NCBI GenBank assembly: GCA_016207825.1
Contig: JACQZI010000028.1
Location: 1 to 11,438, forward strand
Source of the DNA: Planctomycetota bacterium
GTDB taxonomy: Bacteria > Planctomycetota > MHYJ01 > JACQXL01 > JACQZI01
DNA length: 11,438 bases
Direction of reading: 5' to 3'
This document shows, piece by piece, positions 11,011 through 11,215 of this stretch; the first letter of the stretch is position 1; each line of letters begins with the position of its first letter. Below the pieces are notes generated by a model, which was not told the DNA's origin, did no database searches, and worked only from the letters and a program-made list of their open reading frames with translations. The translations under genes were made by a program, and so were the position numbers.

Positions 11011-11041
11011 AAAAAAAGGGAAGGAGCCGGGACTCCTTCCC
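11011..11041 (-). terminator. Hairpin with a minus-strand U-run after rpmI
   Basis: GGGAAGGAG (11018-11026) pairs perfectly with CTCCTTCCC (11033-11041) around a 6-nt loop. Seven A at 11011-11017 give a U-run only when read on the minus strand, where it is a textbook intrinsic terminator. On the plus strand the stem is followed by TCTAACTTGG, which is a poor terminator tail. It may still act as a 3' stabilising hairpin for the rpmI mRNA. The orientation implies leftward transcription from the right edge. Confidence 0.7.
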
Positions 11042-11048
11042 TCTAACT

Positions 11049-11121
11049 TGGATAGACCCTGAACCACGCAGGGTTCAGGGCGGTGAACCCTCAGTGGTTC
11101 ACCGTCTCTTTCCACTATCTA
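11049..11121. repeat. Paired abutting hairpins enclosed by an outer stem
   Basis: CCCTGAACC (11057-11065) pairs with GGTTCAGGG (11072-11080), and immediately after, CGGTGAACC (11081-11089) pairs with GGTTCACCG (11096-11104). Both are perfect 9-bp stems with 6-nt loops. TGGATAG (11049-11055) can pair with CTATCTA (11115-11121) with one G-U pair, closing a three-way junction. The core arms TGAACC/GGTTCA alternate four times at 12-nt steps, so the second and third arms can also pair with each other. No ORF explains the stretch. It could be a REP-like palindromic element, a structured RNA, or a switch; the folding strand is not decided. Confidence 0.75.
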
Positions 11122-11215
11122 CTTACAAAATAGGGGACAAGAAAACGGCTAGGCTTAACGAATTTCTTGGAGTTACACCTATAACCTCTTGAAAAATAAG
11201 GAGATAAAATTTTAC

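Follow-up and report, generated by a model that had tools for sequence, protein, structure and literature searches.

A dispersed double-hairpin element at tRNA genes and beside small GIY-YIG endonuclease ORFs in bacteria of three phyla, with a solo copy at a planctomycetal infC-rpmI locus

Mitochondria are known to contain short mobile palindromes (PMC2800124); the GC clusters of yeast mitochondria include one of 48 nt within the var1/rps3 gene (PMC2800124; PMC4478555), and intron endonucleases have been proposed as the mobilisers of these clusters (PMC4478555). In bacteria, the Rickettsia palindromic elements (RPEs) are likewise palindromic and dispersed, and lie in frame within unrelated genes (PMC10969869). 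How the mitochondrial double-hairpin elements (DHEs), the GC clusters and the RPEs move has stayed open. Other systems that bear on the element described here are the REP/BIME sequences, which are inverted pairs of short palindromes associated with the RAYT (Y1 HUH) transposase, and the free-standing GIY-YIG homing endonucleases (the Seg enzymes of T4-like phages) and the group I intron endonucleases, which are single-domain PF01541 ORFs. The T4 segB gene has a tRNA neighbourhood, as do the GIY-YIG ORFs described below. The open-access literature, to which our search was confined, yielded no paper that describes bacterial DHEs, and none on patescibacterial GIY-YIG/tRNA elements; the claim that a cross-phylum bacterial double hairpin tied to tRNA loops and to one GIY-YIG subfamily is new is therefore provisional.

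The DNA that was analysed (the window) is a stretch of 11,438 nucleotides, the whole of contig C28 of a 2.89 Mb Planctomycetota genome. A 48-nt double-hairpin element lies at 11057..11104 (given without a strand). In unit 1 (11057..11080; CCCTGAACC-ACGCAG-GGTTCAGGG, with an ACnnAG-type loop) the arms at 11057-11065 and 11072-11080 form a perfect 9-bp stem closing a 6-nt loop; in unit 2 (11081..11104; CGGTGAACC-CTCAGT-GGTTCACCG), which in form approximates the reverse complement of unit 1, the arms at 11081-11089 and 11096-11104 do the same, and the units abut without a gap (11080/11081). The RNA fold of 11045-11125 had an energy of −36.7 kcal/mol (z −5.3), equalled by 0 of 200 shuffled sequences, and folding as DNA gave z −6.3. 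First-order Markov simulation at the composition of the window led us to expect 0.08 such hairpins per window, and abutting pairs arose in none of 400 simulations. The copy scored 72.2 bits with our first covariance model (R1). The twin hairpins, two abutting 9-bp/6-nt structures as first described in a sequence-only reading of this DNA, are thus real and far exceed chance. That reading also enclosed them in a 7-bp outer stem spanning 11049..11121 (TGGATAG at 11049-11055 with CTATCTA at 11115-11121, one G-U pair); the stem is possible and appears in the RNA minimum-energy fold, but it is absent from the RNA centroid and from the DNA fold, lies outside the conserved 48-nt element, and is probably incidental. 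The window had no match in Rfam at the gathering threshold. A terminator reading of the twin was rejected, there being no U-run; the sole terminator-like site in the region is a separate minus-strand hairpin at 11044-11015. This perfect 10-bp hairpin (AGGGAAGGAG/CTCCTTCCCT, 11015-11044) is found 3' of rpmI and resembles a minus-strand intrinsic terminator for a gene entering from the contig end.

Copies of the element share the unit form C-NN-TGAACC-n6-GGTTCA-NN-G, two 24-nt palindromic units standing in tandem with the second roughly the inverse of the first. A second covariance model (R2) was built from 18 twins, and over these, pairing in the local twin fold held in 96.3% of cells and 10 of its 18 pairs showed double changes, a level reached in 0 of 500 shuffles. 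The analysis of arm covariation that had been proposed with the sequence-only reading thus came out clearly for the local stems. The same reading had drawn a mutually exclusive fold between the two middle arms, and these arms can be paired on paper; over the 18 copies, however, the alternative fold showed 0 double changes and 91.7% pairing versus 92.1% in shuffles. As the local stems covary and the alternative does not, it is the pair of local hairpins that is preserved, through selection or through the mode of copying.

We compared the window locus with that of a same-genus genome (G001), in which infC and rpmI occur in the same order and InfC is 94% identical. Homology between the loci runs out close to where rpmI ends, and the same-genus infC-rpmI locus yielded no twin hairpin. 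There are no tRNA genes in the window, and no GIY-YIG ORF was seen 3' of its element. From these observations the window copy is best read as a solo (non-autonomous) insertion in the 3' intergenic region, and not as an operon regulator; it is probably neutral DNA that, if transcription reaches it, probably forms a paired 3' trailer. A bistable RNA switch in the 3' part of the infC-rpmI transcript, as had been suggested for this ribosomal-protein operon, would draw on the inner arms of the window copy, which by eye can pair with each other; with the alternative fold no better paired than shuffles and the element absent from this locus within the genus, we give that explanation almost no credence. 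The window shows no rplT between rpmI and the contig end (10807-11438), and a crude search found no rplT 3' of rpmI at the same-genus locus (L254) either.

The search for further copies in this genome and its relatives bore out the suggestion that the twin is a mobile palindrome, as dispersed copies were found in the window's own genome and across three phyla, with precise insertions described below. DNA similarity and pattern searches placed one twin in an MnmE/TrmE-like ORF (contig C5) and one in a BioA ORF (C10) of the same genome, both inside the ORF, and single units there include an intergenic one (C17) and one directly 3' of tRNA-Ser (C23). The pattern matched this genome 11 times in the forward form against 2 for the reversed control when up to one mismatch was allowed, and 8 times against 0 when exact. 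The exact twin pattern also matched one Parcubacteria MAG, one Omnitrophota MAG (on two contigs) and the same-genus Planctomycetota MAG. By covariance model, five twins were present in this Parcubacteria genome, of 0.5 Mb, and about 10 in this Omnitrophota genome; among drawn samples of genomes, R2 matches at E≤1e-6 occurred in 15 of 237 Omnitrophota, 14 of 379 Patescibacteria and 6 of 392 Planctomycetota. The hosts are MAG-derived and their binning was taken as given; that the copies vary in sequence between genomes, and are found next to or within tRNA and housekeeping genes, argues against contamination. IMG/VR contained no twin by exact or relaxed pattern, and phage and plasmid collections searched with the window copy returned one weak partial match and nothing relevant. 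In one Planctomycetota genome (G833; L171, L174) three to five hairpin units stand in tandem arrays, which suggests that units can multiply in place. Elsewhere (L051 and L053 in G006; L117, L120, L123) other small hairpins, for example TCCGCCTAAGGCGGA, are nested in the loop or an arm of a unit, as if palindromes insert into palindromes.

Some copies lie at tRNA genes. Of 90 additional copies, 13 start at the nucleotide that follows the discriminator base of a tRNA and 0 abut a tRNA 5' end; the 13 adjoin Gln, Ser, Met, Leu and Gly tRNAs, and their genomes represent all three phyla. At five loci a copy of the 5' part of a tRNA, 21-71 nt long and 98-100% identical to the intact tRNA downstream on the same strand, stops at the element, the break falling in the D-loop (L131, L141), the anticodon loop (L136) or the T-loop (L132, L137). 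Further copies lie, as judged by eye, in tRNA-like T-arm or anticodon-arm tracts at L129, L130, L138, L142 and L157-L159, of which only L159 was partly supported by alignment (88% over 33 nt). In six cases (L088, L116, L118, L133, L135, L056) the order is tRNA, twin hairpin, GIY-YIG ORF; at L132 and L136, and probably at L130, L142 and L156, it is tRNA 5' part, twin hairpin, GIY-YIG ORF, intact tRNA. No target-site duplication was seen at the insertions, a point of difference from the GC clusters, which have a short one, and by eye the flanks of the element have no constant tetranucleotide.

Other copies lie within protein genes. In BioA of the window's genome and of its same-genus relative the element occupies a variable loop; four genomes of the same order (G002, G003, G005, G007) have a short loop without the element, and two more (G004, G006) have other inserts at the same position. 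In an RNase HII of Parcubacteria it falls in a loop, and the two conserved blocks on either side of it align to solved structures. In-frame copies are also found in ThiL (L124), an MnmE-like GTPase, two unnamed ORFs (L083, L112), and a methyltransferase-like ORF (L059) whose identity comes from weak matches only. The copies in ORFs are 48-nt forms that preserve the reading frame. The element resembles the DHEs and GC clusters of fungal mitochondria in being a short tandem of palindromes, one dispersed unit at tolerant genic and intergenic positions, the tolerant genic sites being the BioA and RNase HII loops and the loops and 3' ends of tRNAs. It differs in residing in bacterial chromosomes of three phyla and in being tightly linked, physically, to one GIY-YIG subfamily as well as to the loops and 3' ends of tRNAs. 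We read it, by analogy, as a bacterial counterpart of the mitochondrial double-hairpin elements, something that works like them and is not a member of that group, and we claim no common descent. With the RPEs it shares in-frame insertion into unrelated protein genes (BioA, MnmE, RNase HII, ThiL and other ORFs), but by description it is set apart from them: RPEs are about 100-150 bp and described from one genus, whereas the present element, a double hairpin of 48 nt, crosses phyla, targets tRNAs and is linked to an endonuclease.

At about 17 loci (a count that includes L156 and L184, added from further locus inspection) the element directly precedes an ORF of about 80 aa, in one polarity, with 18-126 nt, and at most linked loci 18-60 nt, between hairpin and start codon. 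Five of five linked ORFs tested matched the GIY-YIG domain PF01541 with 57-62 bits; the window copy itself has no adjoining GIY-YIG. Whereas an endonuclease was proposed for GC clusters, here one is physically linked. A tree of 49 small GIY-YIG proteins, 15 of them hairpin-linked, was built upon only 87 columns. The hairpin label required 2 changes on this tree as against 13 in shuffles (0 of 500 as low), after the labels of L136 and L184 had been set by hand to hairpin-linked, the motif script having missed units that are visible in the sequence; the first tree, with uncorrected labels, gave 3 changes as against 10.7. Of the bootstrap trees, 70% united the hairpin-linked proteins in one clade, and a single clade was not rejected (AU p 0.46). 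The linked endonucleases cluster as one subfamily, the clade being not firmly supported on 87 columns. The GIY-YIG ORFs of the window's own genome fall outside this cluster, so the source enzyme of the window copy would be a different one or would have been lost. That genome also has decayed GIY-YIG frames with internal stops (L228, L229 on C10), one of them near a tRNA-Leu.

Other small GIY-YIG ORFs of the same genomes often lie beside same-strand tRNAs without this hairpin, so that tRNA targeting is broader than the hairpin, and the linkage of hairpin and GIY-YIG could reflect a shared tRNA target and not a shared mechanism. This is the substance of one rival explanation, in which a MITE or other palindrome is moved, as RPEs may be, by an unlinked transposase, and the GIY-YIG neighbourhood is due to a common preference for tRNA genes. 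The in-frame insertions in unrelated genes, as in RPEs (PMC10969869), and the roughly 70 of 90 copies with no adjoining GIY-YIG ORF fit this explanation as well; the single polarity, the narrow spacing at most linked loci and the clustering in one subfamily go beyond what a shared target by itself would predict, and the target-site duplication is missing, so that we think it unlikely. Relatives of the linked GIY-YIG in viral DNA were limited to two loci on IMG/VR contigs (L268, L269), directly before tRNA-Lys and tRNA-Cys, neither with the hairpin.

The REP/BIME-like character proposed in the sequence-only reading did not hold. An element of this kind mobilised by a RAYT would account for the inverted pair of short palindromes and the dispersed copies, and Y1_Tnp genes are present in most host genomes tested. 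Yet 16 Y1_Tnp loci in 6 genomes had no convincing copy, the matches being weak only (E 0.006 in G004, the best with R1; E 0.16 in G120); the GTAG/GGAG foot was not seen beside the hairpin in flanks inspected by eye; the Parcubacteria genome of 0.5 Mb with five twins, which is incomplete, yielded no Y1_Tnp; and, at odds with the extragenic location of REPs, copies are inside BioA, MnmE, RNase HII, ThiL and tRNA genes. RAYT mobilisation is accordingly highly improbable. Two Y1 transposase genes (L109 on G120:C2 and L104 on G004:C218) are flanked on both sides by hairpins of their own (TGGACCACCG..CGGTGGTCCA; AGGTTG..CAACCT); these are RAYT/REP-like loci unrelated to the window element.

A functional structured RNA under selection for its fold, whether a regulator, a processing signal or a control of downstream endonuclease expression, would be in keeping with the strong compensatory change in the stems and with the placement of hairpins immediately beyond tRNA 3' ends and 18-60 nt ahead of the endonuclease ORF. 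It leaves the copies inside protein genes unexplained, and the window locus of the same-genus genome is without the element; we rate it very unlikely, though a role of the hairpin in endonuclease expression could coexist with mobility.

We consider it likely that this is a mobile element linked to a homing endonuclease and that it has solo hairpin derivatives, of which the window feature is one. The wider proposition stands at about even odds in our judgement: an undescribed class of bacterial mobile element in at least three phyla, composed of tandem 24-nt self-complementary units and a cognate GIY-YIG of about 80 aa. Such an element would home into the loops and the 3' ends of tRNA genes, keep the tRNA intact through duplication of the 5' part, and give rise to solo hairpins that turn into in-frame protein segments. 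Beside the observed dispersal, precise sites, partial tRNA duplication, and linkage and clustering of endonucleases, we infer that the linked enzyme may mobilise the element. The GIY-YIG would cut at or near the tRNA site, or within the palindrome, and repair of the break would copy the element and co-convert the tRNA 5' part, so that an intact tRNA stays; the hairpins may be the recognition or processing structure of the enzyme, and solo hairpins could also spread alone, mobilised in trans. The linked loci differ from those of the Seg and group I intron endonucleases, which they resemble in their single-domain ORFs, in that introns are absent, a conserved twin hairpin immediately precedes the ORF, and part of the tRNA is duplicated; from REP/BIME, which they resemble in the inverted palindromes, they differ in the lack of RAYT linkage and in their intragenic and tRNA sites. 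With a linked endonuclease and clean before/after tRNA sites, endonuclease-driven mobility becomes directly testable, and the element would account for the broken tRNA copies of Patescibacteria as well as for 16-residue inserts in proteins of uncultured bacteria. In three Omnitrophota genomes (L110, L111, L115) what is apparently one insertion site upstream of a GIY-YIG ORF has unit 1 arms of differing sequence and, in one instance, an inverted unit 1 loop, as if single units had been flipped or replaced.
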